From assembly GCA_015228815.1 (NCBI GenBank), contig JADGCV010000003.1, positions 1 through 64,000 on the forward strand: a DNA stretch of 64,000 nt, given 5' to 3'. The notes beneath the pieces were generated by a model. It did no database searches. It saw only the letters and a program-made list of their open reading frames with translations, and was not told where the DNA came from. The stretch is from Magnetococcales bacterium. GTDB taxonomy: Bacteria > Pseudomonadota > Magnetococcia > Magnetococcales > UBA8363. A program made the position numbers and the translations under genes. Below, piece after piece: positions 12,901 through 57,469 of this stretch (position 1 is the stretch's first letter; each line of letters opens with the position of its first letter).

Positions 12901-13432
12901 TGAAAACAAGATCTCCTTCCTTGAGGGGACGCTCCACCCCGTCGGCCCCCTTGACCAGGACCGCTCCCAGGAGTTGCCCGACCTTGCCGATGGCAAGGGG
13001 GACGGCGGAGGAAGAATCTGCCGCGGCGGCAGTTGTTGCCGGGGACTCTGGCGTCGCGGCGGAAGCGCCGCCCTCCGGGCCGACCATCGTCGGACCGGCA
13101 ACCAGGGTCGATGCCGGGGGGGATGGGGCCACCAGAAGCGAGGATACCGTCTCGGGCATCAGCAGGGCGCCGTTGGGCGCCCTGAGGACAGGCGGTTGAA
13201 GAAATGTGAAATATCCTTCCACGATAACAGGTTGACCACTCGGGGCCGTGATGACCAGATCGTCCCCCTGGCGGCTGTAGCGGCCATCCAGAAGCGTCGC
13301 GACATCGGCAAGGATGATTTCCGTTTCCAAGCCGGAATCAGACAAAATGGCATCGGACCGCGCTGCGTCGATGTCGGGGGGCGGGACGGTGGCGGCGGTT
13401 GGCCAATCGTTTGAAAGGGGTCTGGTGATCAT
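6917..13432 (-). CDS. Giant FecR-domain/cadherin-repeat surface protein (2171 aa)
   Basis: This protein is probably a secreted, surface-anchored adhesin. The start ATG at 13432 is preceded by GGGAG at good spacing. Residues ~147-320 are the FecR/retention-like module, with long stretches almost identical to its downstream paralogue. A low-complexity acidic region ([20 protein letters not shown]) comes next, then a PEPx linker at ~517-577. Residues ~610-1590 hold many cadherin-like/VCBS-type repeats ([21 protein letters not shown]). Residues ~1595-1895 form a beta-rich module I do not recognise, in the place where the paralogue has FG-GAP repeats. Residues ~1895-2050 carry [19 protein letters not shown] and [10 protein letters not shown] calcium loops, typical of the region before type I secretion signals. 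No Sec signal or sortase motif is seen. Secretion route and ligand are inferred. Confidence 0.88.
11700..11880 (-). repeat. Degenerate PEPx-coding tandem repeat
   Basis: Imperfect 12-base units (GGTTCGGGGACG and variants) encode PEP-rich sequence ([11 protein letters not shown]) in the second giant protein. It sits at the same domain boundary as the repeat at 5010-5211 but is more diverged. Confidence 0.8.
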
Positions 13433-35116: not shown

Positions 35117-35150
35117 ACGCCCCCCGGATTTATGGGGGGCGTTTTTTTTT
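35117..35150 (+). terminator. Intrinsic terminator after enolase
   Basis: A perfect 9-bp GC-rich stem (ACGCCCCCC / GGGGGGCGT) with an 8-base loop runs directly into a T tract of nine. It ends the gcvPA-gcvPB-eno transcript and marks the left edge of the AT-rich pilus block. Confidence 0.93.
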
Positions 35151-35631: not shown

Positions 35632-35790
35632 TAATTATATGTTCATGGATATCCGCACGATGCGGGCGCTGTGATGGCTCAGGAGATGGAGGATCTGTTT
35701 CTCCATGATGATTGAGTAGGGGTATGAGCTGTTTTGGTCTATCGGTTCGGTAAATTTTCGCTGGGATCTATTTTCCTTGAACGTGATGAA

Positions 35791-38103
35791 ATGAAATCAA
35801 ATTCCAAATCAGAATCGCATGATGGGACTGCACCGGGTACGGATCCATCGATCGGGGGTGGCTTGGGGCGATTGACCTGGGTCAAGATGATGCTGTACAT
35901 GGGATTGTTGTCGATCTTTCTGCTGGTCTCGATTCATTCGATCGGAGAAACCCGACCGGAATTGAATCCAACGGAACCTAACAATGGCACTTCGATACTC
36001 ATGGATGACATCAAGACATTTTCTGCTGAAAAATTGAGTAACACAGTGGTCGATGGTTCAGATCAAAATGCTTCTGGGCAAAATATTCCTTGGAACGATT
36101 CTCAGGCCAATCGTAAGACTGGAAGGGTATCGTACACGGAGCTTGGATCACTCCTGTGGCAGTTGCTTTCTGGCAACACCATAAGCGGTGTGACTGTCTA
36201 CATTGAAAACAAACTGATGGAAGGTGATGGTCTAGGTACATCCTTGGATGAGCGGGTCTTTTACGAGATACGGGAATTAACGGTGAAGGAGGCTTTCGAG
36301 AGACTTATTAAAAGACATCATTTGACCTACATGTACGATGGCAAACAGAACAGAATCGACATCGCCAGGGAACAGGTGTACGCGATTGCGGGAAAAAAAG
36401 AGGCTCAGGGAAAAAAAGAGGCCCAGGGAAACGAGAAGATCGTGGCTGTACCAAAGGATGATAATAAGGTACTTGTCCGCACGTTTCTTTTCCCTGGAAC
36501 GACTGAAAAATTGAAGGTTTTGCTCCTTGGAATGAGAATACGGATGGATCGGATTGTGTCTCAGGTGGTTGATGAGAGAACGGTCGTGTTCCAGGGGCCT
36601 GCATCAATAATTGATGATATTGAAAATATTATTAATGGCCTTAGAGAGAGGGAGGAAGAAGAGTTCGAAGCGGACAGGGAGGCCAGAAAGGAGGTGGCTG
36701 CCAGAGAGAACAAGCTAATTGAAGTACCAGAAAATGACATTGAAAAGAAAAGAAAGTCCAAGAAACAAGCTAGTGATCAATGTGACAGTGATTCAACGCA
36801 ATCACCAGGATCTGTTGTATTCTGGCAAAGTGATACTGTGTGCGGATTCAAAAAAGAGGTCTTGCTCCGAAAAGCGGTTGCCGACACGATCCTTGATTCT
36901 GTTCAGAGTATGATCGACAAGGTTTATCGTAATGTGGAGGTTAAGGGAGCGGAGCAAAAGGAACCGACAGATGTCAAAGAAACGGAAAAGGTCGATTCCA
37001 CGACAGACTCGAAATCTACCTCGATCACATTTCAGCTTGCCCCACCACTTCCGGGAAAGAATGATCCCGTGTTTCCCTTAGTTGTAAGGTCTCCGGCAGT
37101 CAATGGATTCATCGTATACGCGATGAATATCGATCATATTATTGCAATAGAGACGTTGATCAATAATTTGGATCATCCGGCTCAGTTGGTTGAGATTGAG
37201 GTGATGATTGTGGAGGCGCAGAAAAATCTTTTGCGTTCTCTGGGCACCAAATTGGGCGGAAGCGCCTATCCCAGTGTCATTAATCAGGACACAACCAACA
37301 CCTCTAATATTTCCAACTTGTTTAGCCACGACACCGGGGAACATGCCAGCATGGTTTCTCCTCTGACCAGTGGGGCCTCCCTGGGGTTTCTTTATCAAGG
37401 ATCGCGCAATTTATTGGATTCGACTCTGTCGGCATTTGCCCGCGACAACCTCCTGGAACAGGTGGCATCGCCCAAGGTCGTTGTTCTCAACGGAAGGCCG
37501 GCGGTGATCAAGAGTACCGACCAACAAAGTTTTAGGGTTGAAGGCAACGCATTAAGCAATCCTCCGTCCAGCGACAGTTATCAAACAGTGGATACAGGTG
37601 TTGAGATCAATATCACTCCAACCGTGATCGTTGGCAATCAACAATCAGATAAAAATAATTTTGTTCAGTTGAAGATTCATGCGGTAAACAGTTCGGTCAA
37701 TCCACAGACCATTGCATCATTTTCAAAAAATGCGCAAACAATGGACAGTACCGTGATTGTTCCGGTGAATTCGACGTTCATTATCGGGGGACTTTTCAAG
37801 ACGGTTCGGGAGGAAGGAGAGACCGGCGTTCCCTATCTGAAGGAAATTCCCATTCTTGGGGGGTTGTTCAGGGAAAATAAATCCGAGGATCGAACCAGGG
37901 AGACCATTTTTTTCATTACGCCCCGTTCTCATTCTATCAGTCTTGAAGATACTCCCCAGAGAGGTTTGGCTGCCCTCAGTGGAGGAGCGGAAATGGGGGC
38001 TTATGTGCGGCGGAAAAAAGACGAGATTGCTCGGGATCAAAAGAACGTAATCGAAAACAGCAGACTGCTCACAATCGTCAATCCGTGGAAAGAAGATGAA
38101 TAG
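35791..38103 (+). CDS. Type IV pilus/type II-like secretin
   Basis: The outer-membrane secretin of the pilus system, 770 residues. A hydrophobic segment at ~30-50 is preceded by ~30 polar residues, a long n-region for a signal peptide. Residues ~120-200 resemble a secretin/TonB short N-terminal domain, followed by N-domain-like sequence with charged low-complexity inserts (KKEAQGKKEAQG). The C-terminal ~300 residues are the secretin fold: VEIEVMIVEAQKN, VASPKVVVLNGRPAVIKS, VDTGVEINITPTV and the signature VPYLKEIPILGGLFR. It should form the multimeric gate for the pilus. ATG 35791 is preferred; an in-frame TTG at 35734 is possible, and neither has a strong ribosome site. First gene of the pilus locus. 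Confidence 0.88.
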   Translation: MKSNSKSESHDGTAPGTDPSIGGGLGRLTWVKMMLYMGLLSIFLLVSIHSIGETRPELNPTEPNNGTSILMDDIKTFSAEKLSNTVVDGSDQNASGQNIPWNDSQANRKTGRVSYTELGSLLWQLLSGNTISGVTVYIENKLMEGDGLGTSLDERVFYEIRELTVKEAFERLIKRHHLTYMYDGKQNRIDIAREQVYAIAGKKEAQGKKEAQGNEKIVAVPKDDNKVLVRTFLFPGTTEKLKVLLLGMRIRMDRIVSQVVDERTVVFQGPASIIDDIENIINGLREREEEEFEADREARKEVAARENKLIEVPENDIEKKRKSKKQASDQCDSDSTQSPGSVVFWQSDTVCGFKKEVLLRKAVADTILDSVQSMIDKVYRNVEVKGAEQKEPTDVKETEKVDSTTDSKSTSITFQLAPPLPGKNDPVFPLVVRSPAVNGFIVYAMNIDHIIAIETLINNLDHPAQLVEIEVMIVEAQKNLLRSLGTKLGGSAYPSVINQDTTNTSNISNLFSHDTGEHASMVSPLTSGASLGFLYQGSRNLLDSTLSAFARDNLLEQVASPKVVVLNGRPAVIKSTDQQSFRVEGNALSNPPSSDSYQTVDTGVEINITPTVIVGNQQSDKNNFVQLKIHAVNSSVNPQTIASFSKNAQTMDSTVIVPVNSTFIIGGLFKTVREEGETGVPYLKEIPILGGLFRENKSEDRTRETIFFITPRSHSISLEDTPQRGLAALSGGAEMGAYVRRKKDEIARDQKNVIENSRLLTIVNPWKEDE

Positions 38104-38976: not shown

Positions 38977-39552
38977 ATGAAGAGGAAGGGAAGGGTTGGT
39001 TGGTCTGGGGGTGAGGAAGGTTTTACACTGATTGAGCTTATGGTTGTTGTGACCATTATTGCGATTTTGTCTGCCATTGGACTTCCCAGGCTGAATAACT
39101 ATGTTCGAACAAGTACGGCGACTGAAGCTTTAGAAGTTGCAGGCAGGATCGTTAGGGCGATTCATGGGTATGTGGATGCGCAAACCAGTACCTCCATCGA
39201 TCAGTTGAATGTTCTCTTTCAACCGGGGAACAAGGGTAATCTTAACGGTGATACCCCGGATAAGGAAATTTCCAGTTTGATTCCGCATTTGACGGCTCCT
39301 CGCGGTGTCAAGTTCCAGTATGAGATCAATGCCGTCGTGCAGGATAACCGCGATGTTTGGATTTGTATTCGGGCCTGGGAAAAAGAGGCGGGTGCGGATT
39401 CCAATGCCTATGTTCTCTACTCGGGAGCGGAATCCAGCAATCCTCTGTGGCAGGGACACGCTTTTTTGGCCAAGTTTGTGGATGTGACCATTACTGCGAC
39501 ACCCGGCGGCAACTGTGACGCCAATGGTGGGGCGGTAGCGGATCAGGATTGA
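38977..39552 (+). CDS. Type IV prepilin-like protein
   Basis: A 191-residue protein with a prepilin peptidase site EEG-FTLIELMVVVTIIAILS, including Glu at mature position 5. The short basic leader and the hydrophobic helix continuing into NYVRTSTATEA are typical of major pilins. An excellent ribosome site (GAAGGAGA) precedes the ATG, better than in the other pilin genes, which suits high expression. It is the best candidate for the major pilin of this system. Two Cys residues occur in the mature part (WICIRAW, GGNCDAN) and could form a loop disulfide. Confidence 0.85.
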   Translation: MKRKGRVGWSGGEEGFTLIELMVVVTIIAILSAIGLPRLNNYVRTSTATEALEVAGRIVRAIHGYVDAQTSTSIDQLNVLFQPGNKGNLNGDTPDKEISSLIPHLTAPRGVKFQYEINAVVQDNRDVWICIRAWEKEAGADSNAYVLYSGAESSNPLWQGHAFLAKFVDVTITATPGGNCDANGGAVADQD

Positions 39553-39587
39553 TTGAGGATGTTGGAACGTAAAGAGTGATTTTTGTC

Positions 39588-42101
39588 ATGAGTGAGAGTC
39601 ATCTTCTGGTAACCTATCACCTGATCGACGGCAGCCAAAAGCGATCATTCGTGCCTATGGGGGATGCCAGGTCGTTTGTTCTCGGTGGCTTGGGCTCCTT
39701 GAGTCCGAAATGCAACGATATCACATTGGATCACCCGGAATTGCCACTTCCTTCTCGGCTTTGCCTCCTGTCGCGGCACATGAAGAAAGATGAAACAAAT
39801 GAGATGATTTGGGAAGTTTTCGATCTGGTGCCCAAGGGGGAGTATGGAACTGCCAGGTGCTTTCTGGAAAAGAAGGGACATTCTCCGGTACGGGTTGGTT
39901 ATGAACCCCTCAAGGTGGAAAAGGACGATAAAATTGTCATTCGGTTTCCGCACCGTGAAGCGGGGAGTACTTTGCCTGTCCCTGTCATCGAACTGAAAAC
40001 GCTTCATGGCGGATCTGAAGACAATGTGACCGCTTCCTCTTTAGGTGATACCAAGACCGATGATCAGAGGACCAAGTCTGGGGACTCGGTTAATTACCCA
40101 TGGTTGATCAACGATCTCCAACGGGAAAATCTGTTGCCCGAGAAGATTGGTAGGCGGTTATACGAAGTTTTTCACTTATTGCGACAACAAAAAAATGGTG
40201 AAAAAGTTTCCTTCTTCAAACAGGATAAGAGAGAAGCGGCTCTGTATGAAGCATTCAAAAATCTGGACGCAATAATCGCGAAAACCTACGGAGTTTCTTC
40301 CGCATGGTTATTCGAGAACGGGGATCAGGGTGAACATCTGAGGGAAAATGTCGTCCATGGTATCGTGCCCGATCTAACGTCTTTTTTCCGTTTCATTATG
40401 CGTTTACTTCAGCGATATGGTCTAGGTGATGTTCGAGCCAGCATCAACCAATGGGCTGGATGGAAATTCGGAATGCCGCTTTACAGGAACGGGGAGGGGG
40501 AAAAAAAAGGGGTTATCCAAGGCGGCGCGGGTTCCGGCCAAAAATCGGGGAATGTAAAAAATAGTACTCAACCAGTAAAACTTTGGGGGAAGATTGTCTA
40601 TGAGAGGACAAATCTAAAATATTGGGACAAATATCCACACGATGTTCTGGACCGATTCGGGATTATTCCCCTGACTGCGAGTATTCACCGAGACCGGATC
40701 TATTGGGCGGTTCTGGACCCGTTTGATCTGGGGTGGCGGGTTTTCCTGGATGCGTTGCGGCAGCCCAATGAATCGGAGTATTTGAATATGATCGATATCG
40801 TTGATTACGATCGTTTCATGAAGGATATGGGCACACGTCAGAATGAACGGCGAGCTCCGGAGAATGAGGTATCGGTGGATGATGGAAGCCAGGCGGTGCA
40901 GTACGAAGCCATCCCGGCCCGAATGCAAAAAATGTTGCAAGATGCCCAGGATCAAAGGGCCTCCGATATCCACATTGAGGCGGACGAGGACAAGAGCATT
41001 GTTCGTTTTCGGGTTGATGGCGTATTGCACAACTATGCCGACTACAGCAAGGAGACTCACAACGCCATTATTTCCCATTTCAAGGTCCGGACCCAGATGG
41101 ATGTCACCGAGAAGCGTCGGCCCCAGGATGGGCGTTTGAATTTGTCTGGGACCGACATTCGTGCCTCCACCTATCCGACCGTCAAGGGAGAGAAATTTGT
41201 TCTGAGGTTGTTGGATCAGGAGAGCATTGTCACGTCCACCGACCGTCTGGGCATGCTCCCGTTTGATTTGCAGCTTCTGCGAACCAACATCCACGGTCCC
41301 AATGGTTTGATCCTTATCTGTGGTCCCACGGGTTCGGGGAAGACAACGACCCTCTATGCCTGCCTTTCAGAGTTGAACAAGACCGACAGCAATATCATGA
41401 CCATTGAGGAACCGGTGGAATACCGGCTGCATGGAATCAACCAGATGCAGGTGAGAACCGATATTGATCTGACCTTTGAGAAGGGTTTACGGACCATTCT
41501 CAGGCAGGATCCCGACATCATCATGGTAGGGGAAATCCGCGATCAGAACACGGCAAGAACGGCCATTCAGGCGGCCATGACCGGGCATCTTGTGCTTTCC
41601 ACCATTCATACCAACTCTGCGCCACAGGCGGTTGGCAGGCTGCTGGAAATGGGTGTGGAACCCTACATGATCACCTCTGCCTTGAATCTTACAGTGTCGC
41701 AAAGATTGGTGCGCCGGGTGTGCCCTTCCTGCCGCAAATTGATCTCCGGCGCGGAAATCAGGAAAAAAATTGAAGGTGATGGTTTTGACTATCGCCGTTT
41801 TACCCAGACCCTTGGAATGGAAATCCCGCAAAATGATCATTTTTATACTGCGGATCCGAATGGTTGTTCCCAGTGTTTCAATCGTGGCTACCGGGGCCGC
41901 ATGGCCATTTTCGAAACCTTCAATATGAGCCGGGAGGTACGCGATCGTATCCACGCCAACGTAACCGATTCCGAGGATTTGTGGCTGGCTGCGCGCGGAG
42001 CGAAATGGCGGGAAAAGACCCTTTGGGCACATGCGCGGCATTTATTGATGCGGCAAGGGGTGACGACATTTGAAGAAATCATCCGGATCATGGGACTATA
42101 G
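39588..42101 (+). CDS. PilB/GspE-family pilus extension ATPase with FHA-like N-terminus
   Basis: The 837-residue cytoplasmic motor of the pilus. The C-terminal half has Walker A (GPTGSGKTTT, ~578-586), an Asp box (TIEEPVEYRLHG), Walker B (ILRQDPDIIMVGEIRD), a His box (GHLVLSTIHTN), and the zinc-binding CPSC and CSQC pairs of GspE proteins. Residues ~340-420 match a T2SSE/MshEN N-domain (DRFGIIPL). The first ~130 residues look like a degenerate FHA domain (CNDITLDHPELPLPSRLCLL, WEVFDL, VEKDDKIVI), which would be unusual. About 200 residues between are unassigned. ATG 39588 is chosen; GTG 39576 is possible. No PilT-like retraction ATPase is present in the window. Confidence 0.9.
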   Translation: MSESHLLVTYHLIDGSQKRSFVPMGDARSFVLGGLGSLSPKCNDITLDHPELPLPSRLCLLSRHMKKDETNEMIWEVFDLVPKGEYGTARCFLEKKGHSPVRVGYEPLKVEKDDKIVIRFPHREAGSTLPVPVIELKTLHGGSEDNVTASSLGDTKTDDQRTKSGDSVNYPWLINDLQRENLLPEKIGRRLYEVFHLLRQQKNGEKVSFFKQDKREAALYEAFKNLDAIIAKTYGVSSAWLFENGDQGEHLRENVVHGIVPDLTSFFRFIMRLLQRYGLGDVRASINQWAGWKFGMPLYRNGEGEKKGVIQGGAGSGQKSGNVKNSTQPVKLWGKIVYERTNLKYWDKYPHDVLDRFGIIPLTASIHRDRIYWAVLDPFDLGWRVFLDALRQPNESEYLNMIDIVDYDRFMKDMGTRQNERRAPENEVSVDDGSQAVQYEAIPARMQKMLQDAQDQRASDIHIEADEDKSIVRFRVDGVLHNYADYSKETHNAIISHFKVRTQMDVTEKRRPQDGRLNLSGTDIRASTYPTVKGEKFVLRLLDQESIVTSTDRLGMLPFDLQLLRTNIHGPNGLILICGPTGSGKTTTLYACLSELNKTDSNIMTIEEPVEYRLHGINQMQVRTDIDLTFEKGLRTILRQDPDIIMVGEIRDQNTARTAIQAAMTGHLVLSTIHTNSAPQAVGRLLEMGVEPYMITSALNLTVSQRLVRRVCPSCRKLISGAEIRKKIEGDGFDYRRFTQTLGMEIPQNDHFYTADPNGCSQCFNRGYRGRMAIFETFNMSREVRDRIHANVTDSEDLWLAARGAKWREKTLWAHARHLLMRQGVTTFEEIIRIMGL

Positions 42102-42105
42102 GACC

Positions 42106-43149
42106 ATGGCCGACATCAGTCCTCGATCTTTGTTGTTCTTTACCCGGCAGTTTTCCTCAATGGTCAACAGTCATCTTAGTTTGCGGCAGATTCTGGAAAC
42201 CATGGCCAAGGACCTGAGCACTGACAAGAAAATGAGGCCAATTTTGAAATGTCTGTACGATGACCTGGATCGGGGCATGGATCTGGATCGGGCAATGGAA
42301 AAACATGGCGAGGTCTTTAATAGGGATTATATTTCCATTATTCGCTCTGGAGTGCAGTCCGGGCAGTTAGGTGTGGCCCTGGAGCATCTGACAAAGTACC
42401 TTTATAATGCGCATCAAAATCGCAGCAGGCTTCTTACCGCCATCTCCTATCCTATGTTTATCTTTGTTATATTTATAAGCATGTTTCATATTATGGTACT
42501 ATTTATCCTTCCAAGATTTGATCATATTTTCAAGGAATTTGATAAACCACTGCCGAAACTGACCCAGTGGGTTCTCGCGTTCAGCAATTTCTATCTTGAA
42601 CATTTTGGAATTATCATGACGGTATTAGCTCTTCCCGTCCTAATGTTTTTTACTACCCGGATGAGCCCGGGGGTGCGAATGTGGTGGGACATGCACAAAC
42701 TGAATTGGCTTTTACTGGGATCTCTGTGGCGACTGTCGGCGCTGCACCGTTTTTTAAGCAGCCTTGGCGTTCAGGTAAAAAATGGCATACTTATCGTGGA
42801 TGCGGTTCCTCTTGCCGGGAGTGCTGCCAATAATCTTTTCCTGGAGAGTATTTCTCGTCGGGTGCAAGAAAGTATCCAAAACGGTGCTTCAGTAACGGAG
42901 TCTTTTTCTCCCCACGCTATTTTTCAAGGGGTTGCCCTTCAAATGATTCGCGCAGCCGAGGAAAGTGACTCGATGGCCGATCCGTTGCTTTCAACCGCGG
43001 AGCATTTTAACGAATTGCTTCAGAGCCGATTGCAAATCATTACCGAATTGGTGACACCAATTTTGACCATCATTCTTGGGATGATCATTACCGGGATGCT
43101 TGTTGCTGCCTTTTTGCCCGTATTCGAGTTGGGAGGATTGCAGTCATGA
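42106..43149 (+). CDS. PilC/GspF-family inner-membrane platform protein
   Basis: A 347-residue protein with the two-repeat T2SSF fold. LFFTRQFSSMVNSHLSLRQIL opens the first repeat, and LHRFLSSLGVQVKNGILIVDA opens the second. Membrane helices lie near residues ~118-145, ~165-190 and ~315-340. It anchors the extension ATPase to the growing pilus base. It starts five bases after the ATPase gene and overlaps the following cyclase gene by four bases (ATGA). Confidence 0.9.
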   Translation: MADISPRSLLFFTRQFSSMVNSHLSLRQILETMAKDLSTDKKMRPILKCLYDDLDRGMDLDRAMEKHGEVFNRDYISIIRSGVQSGQLGVALEHLTKYLYNAHQNRSRLLTAISYPMFIFVIFISMFHIMVLFILPRFDHIFKEFDKPLPKLTQWVLAFSNFYLEHFGIIMTVLALPVLMFFTTRMSPGVRMWWDMHKLNWLLLGSLWRLSALHRFLSSLGVQVKNGILIVDAVPLAGSAANNLFLESISRRVQESIQNGASVTESFSPHAIFQGVALQMIRAAEESDSMADPLLSTAEHFNELLQSRLQIITELVTPILTIILGMIITGMLVAAFLPVFELGGLQS

Positions 43150-46100
43150 CCCTTCTACCGAAACGAAATCCTTGGACTTTGCCTGGTTGGGGGCTGTTTT
43201 TCGATCCAGAGCCGTTTAAATCCGAGGAAATACCTATAATCAGGGATGGGGTGGTCGGCGTGGTACATTGCCTGTCCTGGAATCGTGAAGGAACTTTGCT
43301 GGCTGTTGCTACTGATGAAGGTCTTTTCCTAAAAAAAGTAGAGACTGGTTGTGCGAATTCTTCTAGCTCGGATGACCCGTCGTGGAAACCGGTCCTTTCT
43401 GGGACCTTTAGTACCATTGTTTTTGGTAATGACAATCGCCTCATCCTGGTAGATCGCCGGGGGATGATTCTTCCCTGCCTGGTTCTCGATGACCTGAAGA
43501 TTCAGGTTGGCAAGGCGTTGATGTGGAATTCGGGAGGAAGTTGGCTGCCGAGTTTTTCCGATGATGCAAAACTATTGGTCGCTCCTGCCGATGGTGGTGG
43601 TATTGGCCTTTATTTTCCCTATGGATCAGAGACGGATTGGAAACTGTTGCCAGAGCCTAATAGACCGTTTGAACAGGCGGTCATCTCCCCGAATAAAAAA
43701 TGGTTGGCCTACTCTCAGACCTTCGATAATGGTTCCAGGGTCTTTGTTTTGCCCATTCCCTTTGATGATGGGGAGGAATGGTGGGTGAATGGTGTCATAT
43801 GTCAAAAGGATCTGAATTTAGGTTATGGTTTTTCCGTATCCTGTCTGGTGTTTAATGGGGATGCGACCGTTTTGTATGTTGGGGGAACCAATCACCGGAT
43901 TATAACATTTGTCAACGATAAAGATGGGTGGGTTAGAAAAACAGAACGATATGGTGTGGGGGCTGGAAGGGTCCATGGAATCCATTTTTTTTGTGAAGAG
44001 AAGTATATGGTTTCCTCTTCTGATAATCGATCTCTATGCCTTTGGAATCGAGGTACGGATCGTTCTTCTGCGAAAGCGAGACCGGACTATGACGCTTATT
44101 GGGTTGTCAGCTATGCTGCTGGAGAACAGATAGGTAGGATGGCCTTTCATCCCAAGGATCCCTGTCTGGTCGCGCATCATGTGGAAGAATACAAAATCAG
44201 CCATTTCTTGATTGATTTAAATGATATTGCATCCAGGAAAAAGTTTACCAAGTTGCAAACCTTTAAGGTACTCTTTATCGGCATGGAGTCTTTGACGTCA
44301 ACACTATTTAATAAATTCATGAAATCCGGAAATTCATCATCTAATGATTCAGGAGATAGTCTTGGAAATGTTAATATAATTAGAATCGAGAATACAGACG
44401 ATCATTGGAAAGAATTGTTCTCCAGGTGGGGCAAGGATGCAGATGTGTGGCGTGAAATATTTCTTTGCCGACTTCCAAAATTGGATAAAACTTCTTCCCA
44501 TGGTTCTATCGGGGAGTTACTTCTGAATGTTTACATGCAGAACACCGATTTGCTGGTCTACGTGACCGATACTCCAATATCTGACCAGATCCAGACTGGA
44601 GCCGGTAGCGTTTCCAGAAACTTGCAACGTTGGGTCAGATTGCTTAAAAATGCGGCTCCAAGAAGGGGCAATAAAAATGATGAATCTAATGCAAAGATAC
44701 CCTGGTTATTGGTGACGAAGGAAGGTGGAAATTCTGGGGCGAATGATTTGCTTTCATCCTGGGGATGCCAGGGTGTGGTAAACGTTGACTTCCATAAGCA
44801 TTCCGATTGGAGTATGCAAACAGTAAGGGAAAAGATTGTTACTTCCTTGAGGGCTTCGACTACAGAAAATATCAGGGTTAGAAATAGTTCATTTCCCATT
44901 TTTCGGGGTCTCATGAGAGAAAAATTCCATTCTGGAAGACGAATTTTTTCAACCGAGGAATTTATAATGGAGGCCAGCAGAATAACACCTGGGACGGAGC
45001 AGTTTAGAATCAATGAACTGACAAAACATTTTAAAAGTTTTCGCCTTCCTGCCACTCAAAGCGGATGGATGGCAACAGCGCCAGACAAAGATCAAATATT
45101 GATCAATCGGTGTGTACTTGATGCGATGTTGGTGCATCTTTTGAAGAGCGCAGTAGACAATAGACATAAGGATGGTACTGTACTTTGGAACGAATGGTTG
45201 GAGAGTCTCGAGCGGGACTCTGATGGACTTGTTTCACAAGCGTATCACTTGGCACTGCAGGATTGGGTCTGGAGTTTGTGTGAACGGGAAAAGGTGGCCG
45301 CGACGTTTGAGGAGGTCAAGGAAAATGAGACGTTGCTCCACCCCAAAAAGTTCGTCTTTCCCTCCTTGGCCAGTGGGCACACATTTCCTCCAGGGGGATA
45401 CCTGCCTGCGCCTCAAGTGACCTATTATTTTTCTGCATCTGAAGATGACCTCTTTCATCATCTTGTTTTTGCGATGAAAAGATCTTTTACTATTAACAAG
45501 ATTGATGCCCTCTGGCAGAGAGGTCTGATGTTTACCACACCTGGTGGTGAAAAGCGGACTGTTGGGTTTTACTTCGGCACATATCAAAGACGGCGCGAAT
45601 ATTGTGAGGAACAAAATGGAGGTCTTGTCGAACTCAACTTATTTTGCATGGATGAGAACATACCACCTTCCATGTGGCAGCAGTTCCAGGAAAAGGTCGA
45701 GACACTGCTTCGCCGTTGGGTTTACGATTCTATGAGTGACGTGGAAGCAAATGGAGGGAGTATCGCTCGACGTGTTGCAAGATTTTTCTGTACAAACAGA
45801 GACTGTAGTTCCGAGGGGTTGGATCGTGGTAAAGCTAAAGATCTTCGTGAGAAAAATAATTTGCGGGCAAAGTGTGGCTGTGGTGCATCGATTCGATTGG
45901 ATCTTATTGAAAATATTGAAGAATTCGAGAAGACTATCCTTCGAGAAGATTCCAAAGCCGAACTTGGTAATGGTGGGCCTGATTTCTTTACTTGGTTGAT
46001 GAGTGATACAAATTTCGCTTTCGATTATCCTCAGTGCGATCAGTTGACGGTGGTATTTACTGATATTAAAGGTTCGATGAATCTCCTGAAGGAGCGGAAG

Positions 46101-46625
46101 GAGGCTGGGTGGTACCAGGCATTGAAAAAGCATTTTGCACAGGCTAATGCCTTGGTCCAGCCAAATCATGGGTATATGGTCAAGAATATGGGTGATGGAT
46201 TTATTCTGCTGTTTGCCGATGCTTATGATGCGCTTAACTATAGTTATCAACTCCAACAAAAGACTGGTGACTCTGGAATAAAAATTCGGGCATCGTTACA
46301 TAATGGTCCGATTTTTATCGATACCGAAATTAAAGACATCTTCGGGGTGAATGTTGGCTTGACGGCCCGGATCATGGAACTCCACAAGGGAGCGGTTATT
46401 TTGGCCAGCGATGTGGTTGTGGACCTCCTCAAGCAACGCAAGGAATTCGTGGAAAATTATTCCGCTGTTCTCATTGCCTCTGTAGACCGATCGGGAAACC
46501 AGTTCTCTCTTGTTGCGGATCAGTATTCTAATGGTGAATCTGAGAAAGTCGGAAAGGGGGTAAGAGTTGATCCTGAGCAGTTAACGGATGGAATCAAGGT
46601 TTATGTGATTGAAAGGATAAAATAA
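43146..46625 (+). CDS. WD40/Roc-COR-like/zinc-ribbon/class III adenylate cyclase protein
   Basis: An 1159-residue soluble protein. Residues ~30-365 form a beta-propeller with WD40-like strands (VHCLSWNREGTLLAVATDEG, VSCLVFNGDATVLYVGG, NRSLCLWNRG). Residues ~370-570 look like a Roc-type GTPase whose P-loop is degenerate (KVLFIGMESLTS) and whose NKxD equivalent reads VTKEG. Residues ~585-860 resemble COR (ILINRCVLDAMLVHLL, LHPKKFVFPSLAS, IDALWQRGLMF). C882, C887, C910 and C912 make a zinc-ribbon-like site. Residues ~965-1095 are a class III cyclase: metal Asp 973 and 1017, adenine-specifying Lys 1013 and Asp 1064, Arg 1075; the usual transition-state Asn is Gly 1071. It is translationally coupled to the platform gene, so it probably makes cAMP in response to pilus or nucleotide state. 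That link is inferred. Confidence 0.75.
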   Translation: MTLLPKRNPWTLPGWGLFFDPEPFKSEEIPIIRDGVVGVVHCLSWNREGTLLAVATDEGLFLKKVETGCANSSSSDDPSWKPVLSGTFSTIVFGNDNRLILVDRRGMILPCLVLDDLKIQVGKALMWNSGGSWLPSFSDDAKLLVAPADGGGIGLYFPYGSETDWKLLPEPNRPFEQAVISPNKKWLAYSQTFDNGSRVFVLPIPFDDGEEWWVNGVICQKDLNLGYGFSVSCLVFNGDATVLYVGGTNHRIITFVNDKDGWVRKTERYGVGAGRVHGIHFFCEEKYMVSSSDNRSLCLWNRGTDRSSAKARPDYDAYWVVSYAAGEQIGRMAFHPKDPCLVAHHVEEYKISHFLIDLNDIASRKKFTKLQTFKVLFIGMESLTSTLFNKFMKSGNSSSNDSGDSLGNVNIIRIENTDDHWKELFSRWGKDADVWREIFLCRLPKLDKTSSHGSIGELLLNVYMQNTDLLVYVTDTPISDQIQTGAGSVSRNLQRWVRLLKNAAPRRGNKNDESNAKIPWLLVTKEGGNSGANDLLSSWGCQGVVNVDFHKHSDWSMQTVREKIVTSLRASTTENIRVRNSSFPIFRGLMREKFHSGRRIFSTEEFIMEASRITPGTEQFRINELTKHFKSFRLPATQSGWMATAPDKDQILINRCVLDAMLVHLLKSAVDNRHKDGTVLWNEWLESLERDSDGLVSQAYHLALQDWVWSLCEREKVAATFEEVKENETLLHPKKFVFPSLASGHTFPPGGYLPAPQVTYYFSASEDDLFHHLVFAMKRSFTINKIDALWQRGLMFTTPGGEKRTVGFYFGTYQRRREYCEEQNGGLVELNLFCMDENIPPSMWQQFQEKVETLLRRWVYDSMSDVEANGGSIARRVARFFCTNRDCSSEGLDRGKAKDLREKNNLRAKCGCGASIRLDLIENIEEFEKTILREDSKAELGNGGPDFFTWLMSDTNFAFDYPQCDQLTVVFTDIKGSMNLLKERKEAGWYQALKKHFAQANALVQPNHGYMVKNMGDGFILLFADAYDALNYSYQLQQKTGDSGIKIRASLHNGPIFIDTEIKDIFGVNVGLTARIMELHKGAVILASDVVVDLLKQRKEFVENYSAVLIASVDRSGNQFSLVADQYSNGESEKVGKGVRVDPEQLTDGIKVYVIERIK

Positions 46626-46692: not shown

Positions 46693-47331
46693 GTGAAGAG
46701 CGGTTCCGGGAACGGATTTACATTGGTCGAATTGATGATGGTGGTCGTGATTATCGGGATTTTGGGTCTTCTGAGCCTTCCAAATCTAAGACCATATATT
46801 TTACGTGGAAATCTTCAATCGGCGCTTCCCTACCTGATGGAGATTTCCGCCAAGGAGCGATCCTTTTACCAGATGAATGGATCCTATTATCTCTCACCGA
46901 ATAATGATGAGCAGGACCTGGAGGATACCCTGGGTGTAGACCTGAGTGGGGCTGGCGATTTCTGTTTTCTGGTTCGAGTGGGTGATGGAAATTATATCAG
47001 TTCTTCGGGAGATAGCGCGAGCGGTGAGGAGGGGAGGGCAAAATTTGAGGTGTGGGCGCTTCTGCGGGATGATTCCTATTCTGGACTGACGCCGGAAAAC
47101 GACAGTGTGACTTCCTTCAACATGGCGGGAGTTTCTTGCATCACCGCCGATGAAAAAATTCACGCCACTGGATTTGTCGGCGTCGATGGTGGTGATGTCG
47201 GGGGGGAAGGCCGAATTCTTTCGCTTCGCTATCCCCAACCGGCGTTCGGATTGGATCCTGCCAAACGGGCCGGGCGTAGCACTGATTTGCATTGGGAAAA
47301 CGGAGTTACCTTTCATGACGCCCTGTTCTGA
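46693..47331 (+). CDS. Prepilin-like protein (FimT/GspH position)
   Basis: A 212-residue protein with cleavage motif GNG-FTLVELMMVVVIIGILG and Glu at mature position 5. GTG is the start, with GAGG five bases upstream. The globular part contains two Cys (GDFCFLV, GVSCITA). It is the first of four consecutive prepilin-like genes in the usual fimT-pilV-pilW-pilX order of minor pilins. It probably helps initiate pilus assembly or sits at the tip. It could instead be a second major pilin, judging by its helix. Confidence 0.8.
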   Translation: MKSGSGNGFTLVELMMVVVIIGILGLLSLPNLRPYILRGNLQSALPYLMEISAKERSFYQMNGSYYLSPNNDEQDLEDTLGVDLSGAGDFCFLVRVGDGNYISSSGDSASGEEGRAKFEVWALLRDDSYSGLTPENDSVTSFNMAGVSCITADEKIHATGFVGVDGGDVGGEGRILSLRYPQPAFGLDPAKRAGRSTDLHWENGVTFHDALF

Positions 47332-47989
47332 CATGTATTGGAGAAAGCATGGGGGTGACCGTCGGTCCAGACCCGAGGGACATTGGTTGCGGAGGGGGCA
47401 ATGTGGTTTTTCCTTGGTGGAAGTGATGATGGGGACCGTCCTGCTTTCTTTTTTTGTCATCGGAGTATCGGAGTTTTGGTCGGTATTGAAGGGACGGCTT
47501 GTTCGAAACAGCATTCGCCAGCAGGCTGTGTTTGTCCTTCATGGCCAGATGGAACGTTTAACCGCTATTTACCGGGAGGACGATGGAACTTATCGGACTT
47601 ATGGTGGGACTACCGGCTACAATGCCCATCATCCCGATTCGGAGCATTCCATTTTGACCGACAGTGATAACGAACTGGTTACAGATCAAGTGAACGACTT
47701 TATATTGGGAGTTGTCTTTTATTTGGATATGGGGGTGCCCGGTCGATCCTCCTCGGATCGAAATGTGGTCTGGATTGATCAGGAGCATGGCGTGGCAGGC
47801 ACTGTGAGCTGGGTGCTGACCAATGTTGGTCAGGCCAACTGTTTTCCCGGAGTGAATTGTCAGAAGTTGCAATTATTTTTAGACTATCCCTATTGGGTCG
47901 AAACAACCGGACCGGTTTTACAACTGCGTCCCTCCCCGGACGGTATCGATACGTTGCGTCTTGACACACTGATTGGACAGTGGTCATGA
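47315..47989 (+). CDS. PilV-like minor prepilin
   Basis: The motif QCG-FSLVEVMMGTVLLSFFVIG follows a longer basic leader (RKHGGDRRSRPEG), as in PilV-type minor pilins. ATG 47315 is preferred because GGAG lies nine bases upstream; it overlaps the preceding gene by 17 bases. ATG 47333 would avoid the overlap but has no ribosome site. Two Cys occur late in the protein (ANCFPGVNC). A tip-complex role alongside the neighbouring minor pilins is inferred from order. Confidence 0.78.
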   Translation: MTPCSDMYWRKHGGDRRSRPEGHWLRRGQCGFSLVEVMMGTVLLSFFVIGVSEFWSVLKGRLVRNSIRQQAVFVLHGQMERLTAIYREDDGTYRTYGGTTGYNAHHPDSEHSILTDSDNELVTDQVNDFILGVVFYLDMGVPGRSSSDRNVVWIDQEHGVAGTVSWVLTNVGQANCFPGVNCQKLQLFLDYPYWVETTGPVLQLRPSPDGIDTLRLDTLIGQWS

Positions 47990-48627
47990 GCGGCGTTGTG
48001 TCTGGAAGGTTAATTGTGTACAGGTCGTCTGGATTTGGCCTGCGGCAATCCGGGTCTACACTGGTGGAGTTGATGGTCGCCTCTTTCATTTCTTTGCTGA
48101 TTGGCATGGTCGTGATTCAGACCGTTTTTCAAATCGAAAAGATGGTTACCTTGTTTTTGGCGACCACCCGGATGAATCAGGAAGCGCGTGAAATATTTTT
48201 TCTTCTTCTTTCAGGGGGCAGGGAAGGCGTTCTCTATTTTCCAGGCATTCACGGTCATGAAAGTGATCCTACGGGCAGGGACCTGAGTCATGTCGGAGGG
48301 CGTATCTGGCTGGGAAATTGGGGAAATGGAACCGGAATATTTGAAGGTGGGGTCACCCCCTACGACATTGTTTGCCAGAAGGAAGGTGATCCTCTACCAC
48401 AATGTTTAGCGGGAGGTGAACATATCGTGGGTGAAGGGATGGTCCTTGATTTCAATACATCGCAATCTTTGGCGGTTCGTGGCCGGACTGTTGATGTCTC
48501 CTACCGGATATTCGAACCCAATCTGGTACCCCGTGGAATCTATGATTCCTATCATCAACCTGATTATATGGTACGGTTCTGGACTTCCGTGGGTCTGATG
48601 CTTGCTCAAGCTCCGGGTAGCCCATGA
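47986..48627 (+). CDS. PilW-like minor prepilin
   Basis: The 213-residue product has a prepilin-type segment RQSGSTLVELMVASFISLLI. The residue after the conserved Gly is Ser rather than Phe, a known variation in PilW-type proteins. Its start overlaps the previous stop (ATGA) and its end overlaps the next start (ATGA). Position and length match PilW in minor-pilin operons. Confidence 0.75.
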   Translation: MSGVVSGRLIVYRSSGFGLRQSGSTLVELMVASFISLLIGMVVIQTVFQIEKMVTLFLATTRMNQEAREIFFLLLSGGREGVLYFPGIHGHESDPTGRDLSHVGGRIWLGNWGNGTGIFEGGVTPYDIVCQKEGDPLPQCLAGGEHIVGEGMVLDFNTSQSLAVRGRTVDVSYRIFEPNLVPRGIYDSYHQPDYMVRFWTSVGLMLAQAPGSP

Positions 48628-49247
48628 TAAGTCATGTACCTGTGCATGCCCATAAGATCGCCGGGAGGAATGCGGGAGGTGTGCTTATGATGATACTGGT
48701 CGTCATAACCGCGACGATCGGATTGATCGCCTATTTATTTGATCATCTGCTCTATTTGGAGACCATGGCCGTTGAGACGTCTTTGGCCCGAGTGCGGATC
48801 TATTGGGCCATGGCGGGACAGGGAAATTATTTTCTGAGCCGTCTGAAATGGCGCGTCGGAACACTTGACGAAGCGAGCACTCCTCAATTTTCAGCCGTTC
48901 AAACTGCTTTGGCAACGTTTGATTTTGATCAACAGGTTCCTTCGGAGTGTGCAACTGCCATTGATGCTGCTATGATCATTCGCTGTATATGGGATGAAGT
49001 GGCTCCATATGAGGCGCAAAATATTCTTGTCTGGGATTATGGACCGGGATATCGACTTCCAATCCAGGTTTCAAGAGGGAACGGCGTGGGCGACATACTT
49101 TTTTCCCTGGCGCAAGGTGCGGCAGGCGACAATGGGCCAATTTTACAGTCTCGACTGATCGCAGGCAACGGGTTGCAGGTGTCTTTTGCACTGGATGGTG
49201 CCAATGGACAATCTGCATCGGTTCGATTGACGGAATTTCGGGAATGA
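48624..49247 (+). CDS. PilX-like minor pilin
   Basis: A 207-residue protein with a short basic N-terminus, NAGGVLMMILVVITATIGLI as the hydrophobic helix, and no Glu at the expected position 5. This is typical of PilX/GspK-like members that sit at the tip. It overlaps the pilW-like gene by four bases. The C-terminal part is unremarkable, with two Cys (SECATAIDAAMIIRC). Confidence 0.68.
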   Translation: MISHVPVHAHKIAGRNAGGVLMMILVVITATIGLIAYLFDHLLYLETMAVETSLARVRIYWAMAGQGNYFLSRLKWRVGTLDEASTPQFSAVQTALATFDFDQQVPSECATAIDAAMIIRCIWDEVAPYEAQNILVWDYGPGYRLPIQVSRGNGVGDILFSLAQGAAGDNGPILQSRLIAGNGLQVSFALDGANGQSASVRLTEFRE

Positions 49248-49251
49248 TGGC

Positions 49252-51243
49252 ATGTCACAACAAGTGAACGCTACTGAGAAAAAACAGCAAGAAGGGCTAC
49301 GGGGGGCGCCGTCATATGGTTATAATAATCAGTTACGGGAGAGAATGGCTCATTTCCAGAAGAAATTTATTTTAATTCTATCAAGAAATACGAATCCCTC
49401 ACCAAGGCTCGCAAGTGGGGATGTGATTCTGATACTGAATTCCTGGGGTTGGTTGCAGTTTGGTCCAGGGGATCGTGTAGAAAAGAATGTTTTTACCATA
49501 AGTGATATTAATAAATTAAAAGAACATAAAAATGAGAAAGGTGGAAATATCTTTCAGAAATCTGTCGAGCGATCGCGGCAACAGAATGAGGCTGTCCAAT
49601 TGCAAGCTATTCGTAAGGCCCTTTCTGATTGGTGGAATCATCCTGGCACCAACGAAAATTCTCAAAATTTTAATAATCTATATTTGGTGTTGGGTGATAT
49701 AAGCAGTATTATTACAATGCCTGTAGAGAACAATTTTGTTCGCCGCGGGAATTGGATCCGAACGAATTATCGAATTCCCAAGGCCCTTTCCTGCCCGTTG
49801 GCCACCGATTTCCCTGGCTCTTACGCCTGTGTGCGGAAAAAAGTTTTCGACGATTTTTATTCCAGCGCGGGCCTGGGTTTCATGGAGTTATTCAGTAGGA
49901 AGATTGCCGGGGTTTTCCCCATGGATAACCTCCTTGTGCATCACAAAAATGTTAAAGAACGATTAAGCGATAAGTTTCCAGTCGTGATTTTAAATCTGGA
50001 AGGGCGAAGAACCCGTATATTTTTGATTGAACATGGAAAATTGGAATGCATTGCTTTTGATGTTACATTTGGTGTTATGGATATTGTCTTGGATTTGGGA
50101 TGCCTTGATAATCTTGAGGAGTGTGTCAAGAGCCTGTTGCCCATCGACCAGGACGAGTTGTTGCGGCTGATGCACTCTTACCCGGTTCCCAGATTGGCGA
50201 TACAAAGATTCTTTTCCAATCTGTTGGGATCACTACGTCTTGTTCTGGAACAGTATAGCCTGCAAGAAGGAAGGTCTCTTCCTAAAGAGACAAAGTTCTT
50301 CCTTGCCGGAGGTTTTTCCCTCTCCATGGGGGGAAATACCGATAAAGATTGGAAATTTTTTTTAGAGTTGGGGAAGAGGGTGGTTCAGATTCTCGGATTC
50401 GATCCGGAAGTGCTTCCTTTCGTTGATGGCGTTACGAATCCGTTTTCTTTCTCCGCGAAAGAGATGCAAAGAATTGGTGGAATTTATTTTGCCAAACCTG
50501 ACCTCCGGCAGGTTCCTGGGAAGGACGATGATGAAGAAATAGAGAAATATTACTCTGAAAAAGATTTATATTATTCTGGGAACACCCCGGCTAATCATAC
50601 CCCGTTGAGAATTGCCACTGCATTCCCGGAATCTTTCATAAGTATTCAGACTACTCCCAAGCCACCCCCGGCTGTTTCTGGTCCAGAGAAGTTTCCCATG
50701 TCGATACAGAAAAATTTATTGTTCGGTGGTCTTGTAGTGGTGTCGGTTGTCATGTTTTTATTATTTCGTTGGCACTATAATAGTGTCTATGATGAAATAT
50801 ATAATACATACAAAGAAGCATCAAAAGTTAATGAAAAGCATTCTGATGAACTTAATGAATACAGATCTTATTATGGATCATCTTTGAGCAGTCGATTGTT
50901 TCGCCTGATTGGAGGAGATGAACGGATCAATCTTAAGCGCCTCCATGTCAAAAAATTGGAGAAGGGAAAGTACAAGATGACTTTGGAAGGAACTTTTCTC
51001 AATGAGCTTCAAGGCGATGGAACAAAAAAAGAATTTAACGGAATTAGTATGAAACCAGATAAAAACGAGGACGCGAAAACCTGGAGTGGAAGTTTCAAAG
51101 AATATTTGCGCCGCCTATTTATGTCCACAGAGTTTGTGAACTATACGATCGATGAGTTGAAAATCGTGGAGCAGGATCATAAGGGATATGGTTTTATCGT
51201 TACGATTATAGAGAGTAATATTCACAAAAGAATCGATCTATAA
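49252..51243 (+). CDS. PilM-PilN-like fusion (pilus alignment subcomplex)
   Basis: The 663-residue protein has a cytoplasmic N-terminal part with features of the actin-like PilM fold. VVILNLEGRRTRIFLIEHGKL is a phosphate-1-like strand pair, and LRLVLEQYSLQEG followed by KFFLAGGFSLSMGG resembles the phosphate-2 region. A single membrane helix lies at ~489-508 (LLFGGLVVVSVVMFLLF), preceded by basic residues. The ~150-residue C-terminus would be periplasmic and resembles PilN in size and topology. In most type IV pilus systems PilM and PilN are separate proteins that bind each other, so a natural fusion fits. No similarity was verified by search. Confidence 0.6.
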   Translation: MSQQVNATEKKQQEGLRGAPSYGYNNQLRERMAHFQKKFILILSRNTNPSPRLASGDVILILNSWGWLQFGPGDRVEKNVFTISDINKLKEHKNEKGGNIFQKSVERSRQQNEAVQLQAIRKALSDWWNHPGTNENSQNFNNLYLVLGDISSIITMPVENNFVRRGNWIRTNYRIPKALSCPLATDFPGSYACVRKKVFDDFYSSAGLGFMELFSRKIAGVFPMDNLLVHHKNVKERLSDKFPVVILNLEGRRTRIFLIEHGKLECIAFDVTFGVMDIVLDLGCLDNLEECVKSLLPIDQDELLRLMHSYPVPRLAIQRFFSNLLGSLRLVLEQYSLQEGRSLPKETKFFLAGGFSLSMGGNTDKDWKFFLELGKRVVQILGFDPEVLPFVDGVTNPFSFSAKEMQRIGGIYFAKPDLRQVPGKDDDEEIEKYYSEKDLYYSGNTPANHTPLRIATAFPESFISIQTTPKPPPAVSGPEKFPMSIQKNLLFGGLVVVSVVMFLLFRWHYNSVYDEIYNTYKEASKVNEKHSDELNEYRSYYGSSLSSRLFRLIGGDERINLKRLHVKKLEKGKYKMTLEGTFLNELQGDGTKKEFNGISMKPDKNEDAKTWSGSFKEYLRRLFMSTEFVNYTIDELKIVEQDHKGYGFIVTIIESNIHKRIDL

Positions 51244-51270: not shown

Positions 51271-52377
51271 ATGATTTCGATTGATGATGTAAAGATGCAC
51301 GTCAAGCATCCAAGGAGGTTTTTTGAATTAAATACAGTCCCTGCATTTGTTGTTATGTTATTCATTATTTGGATATGCGGGATTTCTTTGCTTACGAACT
51401 TTTTCAAAATTGACTCCATAAGGGAATCGCTTGATAGGGAACTTTGTTCTGGGACTCAGTATGGTTTTATCTTTATGAAGGACCAGAAAGATTCGTCCCA
51501 AGATGATCAAACAACCCTGCTGATCCAAAGTGTAAAGACGGCGGCGAATAGCGCGCGTATCAATGAATTAAAGAATCTTAGGGTTTTCGTTAAGGGAAAA
51601 AACAAGGAGATGATTGAGGTAAACTATATTGGAACATTTGAAAAATTTTTCCTGATGGTGAAAGAGTTGGAACGCTCAGGCCATCAACTTTCCGATGCAT
51701 CGCTTGAGTTGGTTAACGAAGAGGGTAATATCGACGCACTTGCGATAAAATTTTCATTGCAACGGGCCAATTTCCCCACATTTCACATCCGAGACGATTT
51801 CGAAAAAGTTCCAAATGATTTACGTGAATTCATTGATCCTTCGGCTGAAAATATAGAGAAAGGCTTTCTCCCTCAGTATACAAGTGAAAAATGCACGTTT
51901 GACCTTGAAAAATTAAAGTATGCAGATGGTTCCTTTCCAAAGGGCAGTGTGCCAAGCGTATTTGGTACTCTATTCTCTGAATTGGCCAAGGTTGCAACAT
52001 TCAATAAGAGCCAGAAGAAATTCTACGCTTCAATTGCAGGCAGCTCCGAGGAAAAACGGTCAGACGTCCCTGTAGAGTTCAGGAATCCATTTCACGAATA
52101 TATCAGGTATATGGGCGAGAATTACCTGAAAATTCCTGGTTATTATAAATTAGATCGGTTGGAAATCATTGATGATAAAGGTCAGGTTGACATCAATGGT
52201 GTGACCTACCGCACCGGTGAACGGTTCCCACGAAATGCCTTCCACAAGAATGGAACCGCCTTTTCAAACCTGGGTTCCCTTCTGGTTTATTCCATAGATC
52301 CGAAAGGACATGTTCTTTTTCGCCAGGATAATGTTTATCCCGATTATCTGCTGCTTCCTCCCCTTGATGTGCTATAA
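51271..52377 (+). CDS. PilO-like alignment protein with extended periplasmic C-terminus
   Basis: A 368-residue bitopic protein with a short cytoplasmic N-terminus, one membrane helix (~24-46, VVMLFIIWICGISLL) and a large periplasmic region. IEVNYIGTFEKFFLMVKELE resembles PilO's ferredoxin-like core. The ~190 C-terminal residues (residues ~180 onward) are extra and might supply the PilP function, since the GVTYRTGERFP and GHVLFR strands recall PilP-like beta domains. AAGGAG precedes the ATG. Last gene of the pilus block. Confidence 0.58.
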   Translation: MISIDDVKMHVKHPRRFFELNTVPAFVVMLFIIWICGISLLTNFFKIDSIRESLDRELCSGTQYGFIFMKDQKDSSQDDQTTLLIQSVKTAANSARINELKNLRVFVKGKNKEMIEVNYIGTFEKFFLMVKELERSGHQLSDASLELVNEEGNIDALAIKFSLQRANFPTFHIRDDFEKVPNDLREFIDPSAENIEKGFLPQYTSEKCTFDLEKLKYADGSFPKGSVPSVFGTLFSELAKVATFNKSQKKFYASIAGSSEEKRSDVPVEFRNPFHEYIRYMGENYLKIPGYYKLDRLEIIDDKGQVDINGVTYRTGERFPRNAFHKNGTAFSNLGSLLVYSIDPKGHVLFRQDNVYPDYLLLPPLDVL

Positions 52378-57049: not shown

Positions 57050-57469
57050 ATGTTGTTCAACAGAAACAAACCTTCTCTGGGCAAGACCTTTCAGAACGGG
57101 GAGATCATCGTCAAACAGCACGATCCTCCCGGTTCGATGTTCATCATCCTGGAAGGCCGCGTCGAAATATGGGTCGATGACGGCGACAAGGAACCTTTTT
57201 TGGTGGCGGTCCTGGAGAAGGATAACGTTTTTGGTGGAATTTCGCTCTACGATAATTCGCCAAGGATTTCCACCGCTCGTGCTCTCGGACGGGTGCGTCT
57301 CCTTTCAGTGGACAAGCGGGGCTTTTTGCAATGGTTGGGGGAAGATCCGACCTTTGCTTTGCGGATTCTGCTGAAAATGTCCGAACGGATCCGGACCCTG
57401 ATCGGGCAATTGGTCTCGTTGCGGCGGGAGGTGCGGGAACTCAGGCAGAAGGTGGCGAGAATCCGTTGA
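57050..57469 (+). CDS. Single-domain cyclic-nucleotide-binding protein without HTH
   Basis: A 139-residue protein consisting of one CNB fold: PPGSMFIILEGRVEIWVDDG, a phosphate-cassette-like region (FGGISLYDNSPRISTARAL), and a terminal helix that extends into a basic coiled coil (REVRELRQKV). It lacks the helix-turn-helix of Crp/Fnr regulators, so it is unlikely to bind DNA itself and may act as a cAMP-dependent switch on a partner. GAAGGTG lies eight bases before the ATG. A sensor kinase gene follows 169 bases later. Confidence 0.75.
   Translation: MLFNRNKPSLGKTFQNGEIIVKQHDPPGSMFIILEGRVEIWVDDGDKEPFLVAVLEKDNVFGGISLYDNSPRISTARALGRVRLLSVDKRGFLQWLGEDPTFALRILLKMSERIRTLIGQLVSLRREVRELRQKVARIR

Follow-up and report, generated by a model that had tools for sequence, protein, structure and literature searches.

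A type IV pilus operon in Magnetococcales contains a gene for a WD40/pseudo-Roc protein with a class III cyclase domain, a plausible local source of cAMP

The pilus operon and its cyclase gene

The window analysed here is a stretch of 64,000 nucleotides from a Magnetococcales bacterium (assembly GCA_015228815.1, contig JADGCV010000003.1, positions 1 to 64,000, forward strand). It contains a type IV pilus operon (Table 1) in which a secretin gene is followed by a 284-aa gene, a pilin gene, the genes of a PilB-type ATPase and a PilC-type protein, the gene of a large protein designated P0001, several prepilin-like genes and two further large genes. The 1159-aa open reading frame of P0001 was confirmed at 43146-46625 on the plus strand. 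Its ATG start codon shares an ATGA (43146-43149) with the stop codon of the T2SSF/PilC gene, and genes for N-methyl pilins lie 3' of it on the same strand. The location, the coupling to the pilC-like gene and the same-strand pilin genes downstream, as described in an earlier sequence-only reading of this DNA, were therefore all borne out. A strong terminator-like stem was found 5' of the operon, at 35117-35142, and none of comparable strength was detected from pilC to the first pilin gene. The 284-aa gene had no NCBIfam or Pfam match, and a Pfam search with the N-terminal 417 aa of PilB likewise returned none.

Table 1. Features of the pilus operon and of the P0001 gene (window coordinates)
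Feature	Coordinates	Strand	Basis or remark
Secretin, PilQ-like	35734..38103	+	NCBIfam TIGR02515, E 1.6e-35
Conserved pilus-operon gene, 284 aa	38096..38950	+	Homologs at matching position in related pilus loci
Pilin-like gene	38977..39552	+	TIGR02532; synteny; a kinase-FGE gene comes next in related loci
PilB/GspE-type ATPase	39576..42101	+	PF00437, E 1e-119; N-terminal extension of ~440 aa
PilC/GspF-type inner-membrane protein	42070..43149	+	PF00482, E 1.6e-43
Ribosome-binding site GGGAGG	43131..43136	+	Read from sequence; nine bases 5' of the P0001 gene ATG
WD40/pseudo-Roc/COR-position/zinc ribbon/class III cyclase gene, 1159 aa (P0001)	43146..46625	+	
Beta-propeller region, residues 1-365	43146..44240	+	PF00400, 29.9 bits (cut-off 27)
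Pseudo-Roc region, residues 366-578	44241..44879	+	Alignment to intact Roc of P0004; collinear profile
COR-position region, residues 579-872	44880..45761	+	C-terminal half common to WD40-Roc scaffold proteins
Zinc-ribbon-like segment	45762..45920	+	C882, C887, C910, C912
Class III nucleotidyl cyclase domain, residues 965-1105	46038..46460	+	PF00211; Ma1120 match; ortholog 64% identical
Prepilin-like gene mp1	46693..47331	+	PF07963, TIGR02532
Prepilin-like gene mp2	47315..47989	+	PF07963 on ORF 47150-47989; start site inferred
Prepilin-like gene mp3	47980..48627	+	PF07963 slightly below cut-off; synteny
Minor-pilin-position gene mp4	48624..49247	+	Synteny; no significant family
663-aa gene, probably PilM/PilN-like by position	49252..51243	+	DCbin2 ortholog; no family match
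368-aa gene, probably PilO/PilP-like by position	51271..52377	+	DCbin2 ortholog; no significant family match

Domain architecture of P0001

The sequence-only reading had assigned a beta-propeller, a zinc-ribbon-like site and a class III cyclase to P0001, and profile searches and comparison with related proteins support all three, the cyclase assignment being secure. The WD40 match exceeds the cut-off when the N-terminal 365 aa are searched in isolation, while the whole protein scores 23.4 bits, below it; about seven blade-like repeats can be recognized by eye, the per-blade WD40 profile test being weak. The four cysteines of the zinc-ribbon-like segment are conserved in P0003, the ortholog described below, and C887, C910 and C912 align with cysteines of a more distant relative, P0004. 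In the cyclase domain, PF00211 matched P0001 with 35.1 bits against a cut-off of 21.9, and phmmer retrieved Ma1120, a class III adenylyl cyclase of Mycobacterium avium (PDB 4WP8, 4WP9), with an E-value of 4e-10 for P0001 and 2.4e-11 for the isolated cyclase domain, of which it is the nearest solved relative.

The metal-binding Asp pair (D973 and D1017), the adenine-type pair (K1013/D1064) and the transition-state Arg (R1075) are all kept in P0001, and the adenine-specifying Lys and Asp and the Arg are shared with Ma1120. The position of the transition-state Asn is occupied by Gly in P0001 (G1071) and P0003, and by Asn in P0004. Ma1120 also carries a small residue there (A164), and it was demonstrated that this enzyme is an active adenylyl cyclase whose activity is lowered by the A164N substitution (PMC4215837). 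Since the metal Asp residues, the adenine-type pair and the Arg are retained, and since Ma1120 is active with Ala at the Asn position, the enzyme is probably active, with cAMP as its probable product. The likeness between the two proteins is confined to the cyclase domain, as Ma1120 has no match to the propeller, Roc or zinc ribbon.

The region between propeller and zinc ribbon had been described as Roc-like and COR-like. For the Roc part, no Pfam match was obtained in P0001 or P0003, and the nucleotide-binding motifs G1, G3 and G4, which read GDSGVGKS, DLAG and NDRG in P0004, are replaced by GMESLTST, RLPK and TKEG in P0001. The segment from Roc to zinc ribbon of P0001 and its ortholog is nevertheless collinear with that of a family of intact-Roc scaffold proteins (hhalign E 9e-8 over 418 columns), with a score of 65.7 against a shuffle maximum of 22.8, although the Roc part by itself is weak (24.3 versus 20.3 for shuffles). 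Since the three motifs are lost and collinear homology to intact-Roc relatives is found, the segment is, as judged from these alignments, a pseudo-GTPase.

The COR assignment fared less well. The COR-position region aligns with the scaffold proteins (hhalign E 6e-7), and these relatives weakly resemble genuine COR (score 30.9, shuffle maximum 18.3) and, over Roc plus the following region, match PF16095-positive Roco proteins (E 5.7e-15). P0001 itself has no Pfam COR match, and comparison of its region with genuine COR gave an hhalign E of 0.14 and nothing above shuffles, so that a COR identity is weakly supported. According to a 2019 review, all prokaryotic Roco proteins then known were of the LRR type (PMC6337361). 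Like bacterial Roco and LRRK2-type proteins, the relatives of P0001 possess a Roc followed by a COR-position region, but P0001 differs in its WD40 rather than LRR N-terminus, its cyclase output, its lost GTP motifs and its weak COR when taken alone. A PIN_5 match in the middle region of P0001 fell below the cut-off and was taken as chance, and an AlphaFold2 model of the full protein, with one ortholog in the input, had a mean pLDDT of 32.

Ortholog, distribution and scaffold relatives

The pilus operon of Magnetococcales bacterium DCbin2, whose genome is 78% complete, encodes P0003, 52% identical to P0001, at the corresponding position. Of the eight genomes of the genus, only the window genome and that of DCbin2 were found to carry the gene, and their operons are syntenic throughout. 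Conservation between the two proteins is highest in the cyclase (64% identity), and dN was lower than dS in every domain where both were computable, in a pairwise comparison with partly saturated dS. Among 48 genomes of the class, one further relative was found, P0004 in the genome G021, and a scan of genome contigs with two peptide patterns matched DCbin2 only. The sequence-only reading had named a chance insertion as the explanation if every orthologous pilus locus lacked the gene. The DCbin2 ortholog speaks against this, while more distant homologous pilus operons do lack a P0001-type gene. The signature of purifying selection and the shared slot in a second species lead to the rejection of a chance insertion.

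P0004 has a canonical WD40 propeller, an intact Roc (PF08477, 1.6e-13), a COR-position region, a zinc ribbon and a cyclase in the same order as P0001, and its gene lies outside any pilus locus. This G021 gene (L012:8645-11851), encoding WD40, intact Roc, zinc ribbon and cyclase, has genes for a phage-type integrase and a DUF927 protein in its neighbourhood. In cyanobacteria, the order of propeller, Roc, linker and zinc ribbon recurs in Calothrix BAZ36750.1, with a TIR-like C-terminal end, and in Nostoc WP_256874761.1, with a metallophosphoesterase and CHAT at the C-terminus; both are plasmid-borne. These proteins share with P0001 the domain order and a C-terminal place in which the effector can be exchanged. 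They differ from it in their intact GTPase and their location outside pilus operons and, in cyanobacteria, in their effectors. The relatives with TIR and metallophosphoesterase-CHAT effectors matched PADLOC, whereas the PADLOC anti-phage profiles gave no match for P0001 or P0003. A search of plasmids with P0001 retrieved cyclase domains only, the scaffold profile had no match in viral contigs, and a COR-zinc-ribbon profile detected only the three known genes in a sample of 399 genomes of the phylum.

Signalling genes in homologous pilus operons

The mp1 pilin was found in 15 of the 48 class genomes, which indicates that this family of pilus operons is wider than the distribution of P0001. Among the loci with a readable pilin-pilB junction, to which the survey was limited, most carry a kinase-FGE gene, in which a Ser/Thr kinase is fused to an FGE-sulfatase domain. 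Such genes are present at this junction in G004, G005, G027 and G032 (L043:3437-5008; L044:11568-13118; L067:6634-9027; L068:3847-5409). In G011 the pair is split between one gene for a kinase and another for an FGE-TIR protein (L066:10547-11983), in G041 the junction holds FGE only, and in G006 (locus L045) it holds none of these and no cyclase either. Additionally, PilB carries an FHA domain at the loci L043, L045, L067 and L068, detected by Pfam in G004, G027 and G006, with G032 in the same alignable FHA set; this domain could be a reader of the kinase-FGE protein. The possibility that the N-terminus of the window PilB is a degenerate FHA was left unproven, as the profile test was negative (best hhalign E 0.07).

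No kinase was found at the pilin-pilB junction in the window or in DCbin2, and the rest of the window genome yielded no full-length kinase-FGE gene. The window has its cyclase gene in the pilC-mp1 interval, where several other loci have gspA/gspB (G004, the G005-mp1 cluster, G006, G018 and G032, and partially G016 and G021). Like P0001, kinase-FGE is a large cytosolic signalling gene within the same operon family, but it differs in its Ser/Thr kinase chemistry, in the FHA-carrying PilB of some loci and in its location. Kinase and cyclase may thus be alternative ways to wire signalling into the same pilus machine. Because L045 has neither at the pilin-pilB junction, and because the cyclase occupies the pilC-mp1 interval and not the kinase slot, a swap of kinase for cyclase is a parsimonious reading rather than a demonstrated event.

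cAMP signalling in the window genome

Besides P0001, the window genome encodes three further class III cyclases, and 29 cNMP-binding domain matches were detected in it. At L052:4304-8663, the gene of a further pilB-type ATPase and that of a cNMP-binding protein overlap, next to a gene whose product combines FHA with two cNMP-binding domains. Given the number of matches and this overlap, cAMP control of pilus motors is conceivable in this organism, which shows nothing for the P0001 locus itself. A cNMP-binding domain is also encoded in a 151-aa frame of the window (57083-57340), roughly 5 kb 3' of the pilus operon. In Pseudomonas aeruginosa, cAMP is linked to type IV pili via PilG and CyaB (PMC11656802). 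The Pil-Chp/CyaB system resembles the present locus in that cAMP from an adenylyl cyclase is tied to pilus function, but activation of CyaB runs via the chemosensory regulator PilG, while the P0001 cyclase is encoded inside the pilus operon and comes with its own propeller and pseudo-GTPase.

Proposed function and alternative explanations

The most likely reading is that P0001 is a cytosolic signalling protein built on an effector-swapping, Roco-like WD40-Roc scaffold, that its output domain is a class III adenylyl cyclase, and that it was recruited to the type IV pilus operon to supply cAMP locally; a probability of about 0.5 is assigned to this reading. With the Asp pair, K1013/D1064 and Arg kept, it is plausible that the pilus locus has its own cAMP source. 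That this source reports the assembly state of the pilus, as the sequence-only reading suggested, is speculative. The propeller would dock on the cytoplasmic side of the pilus, with PilB, PilC or the PilM-like protein as conceivable partners, and the degenerate Roc/COR-position segment would not switch with GTP but might hold or bring together two subunits. Class III cyclase domains are active only as dimers. The docked state could alter the pairing of the cyclase domains, so that cAMP would be made near the pilus and would act via some of the many cNMP-binding proteins of the genome. A dimerizing role of the Roc/COR segment is as weakly supported as COR itself, and the tie of P0001 to the pilus, physical or regulatory, is read from gene position in two genomes. 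A bolder and rather doubtful version is that of an operon with a built-in second-messenger source, in which the condition of the pilus base is read by the propeller, the Roco-derived pseudo-GTPase gates the cyclase and the kinase/FHA circuit of sister operons has been replaced. Were this so, a multidomain cyclase encoded in the operon, and not a separate chemosensory pathway, would tie cAMP signalling to the pilus machine. A Roco-like scaffold would then have retained its output after loss of the GTPase switch, and a single pilus operon family would use either a kinase or a cyclase.

The company kept by the scaffold relatives, whose TIR and metallophosphoesterase-CHAT proteins match PADLOC and whose genes are plasmid-borne or have an integrase as neighbour, would fit a role in conflict with invaders, and the sister operon at L066 holds an FGE-TIR gene. 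Moreover, cNMP cyclase, TIR and calcineurin-type domains have been described in conflict systems, where effectors are paired with NTPases (PMC7159879). P0001 could accordingly be an anti-invader WD40-Roc/effector protein settled in the operon, watching the pilus as a route or receptor and using cAMP or another nucleotide as a danger signal, not to regulate the pilus. This is considered unlikely, since PADLOC matches neither P0001 nor P0003, the Roc switch is dead, and both copies occupy the same slot with conserved cyclase and propeller, unlike fast-diversifying effectors.

A little less probable again is a catalytically dead cyclase, P0001 then acting at the pilus base as an adaptor, either structural or nucleotide-binding. 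The Gly in place of the transition-state Asn in both orthologs would fit such a role, and the degenerate Roc part shows that catalytic loss is tolerated, but the other catalytic residues are kept in what is the most conserved part of the protein, and the Asn is common in class III cyclases but not universal, Ma1120 being active with Ala and less active with A164N. Improbable to a greater degree is an active cyclase that is a mere passenger, co-transcribed with pilus genes and serving unrelated, cell-wide cAMP pathways. The absence of the gene from more distant operons and the presence of other cyclases and many cNMP-binding proteins are in line with it, whereas the overlap with pilC and the position kept in DCbin2 at 52% identity are not.

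Additional observations

A search of the assembly returned no SSU rRNA. In the window, a 2171-aa open reading frame lies on the minus strand at 6917-13432. Genes for a trypsin-like peptidase and an AAA ATPase come after the pilus operon of DCbin2 (L046:18867-21315).
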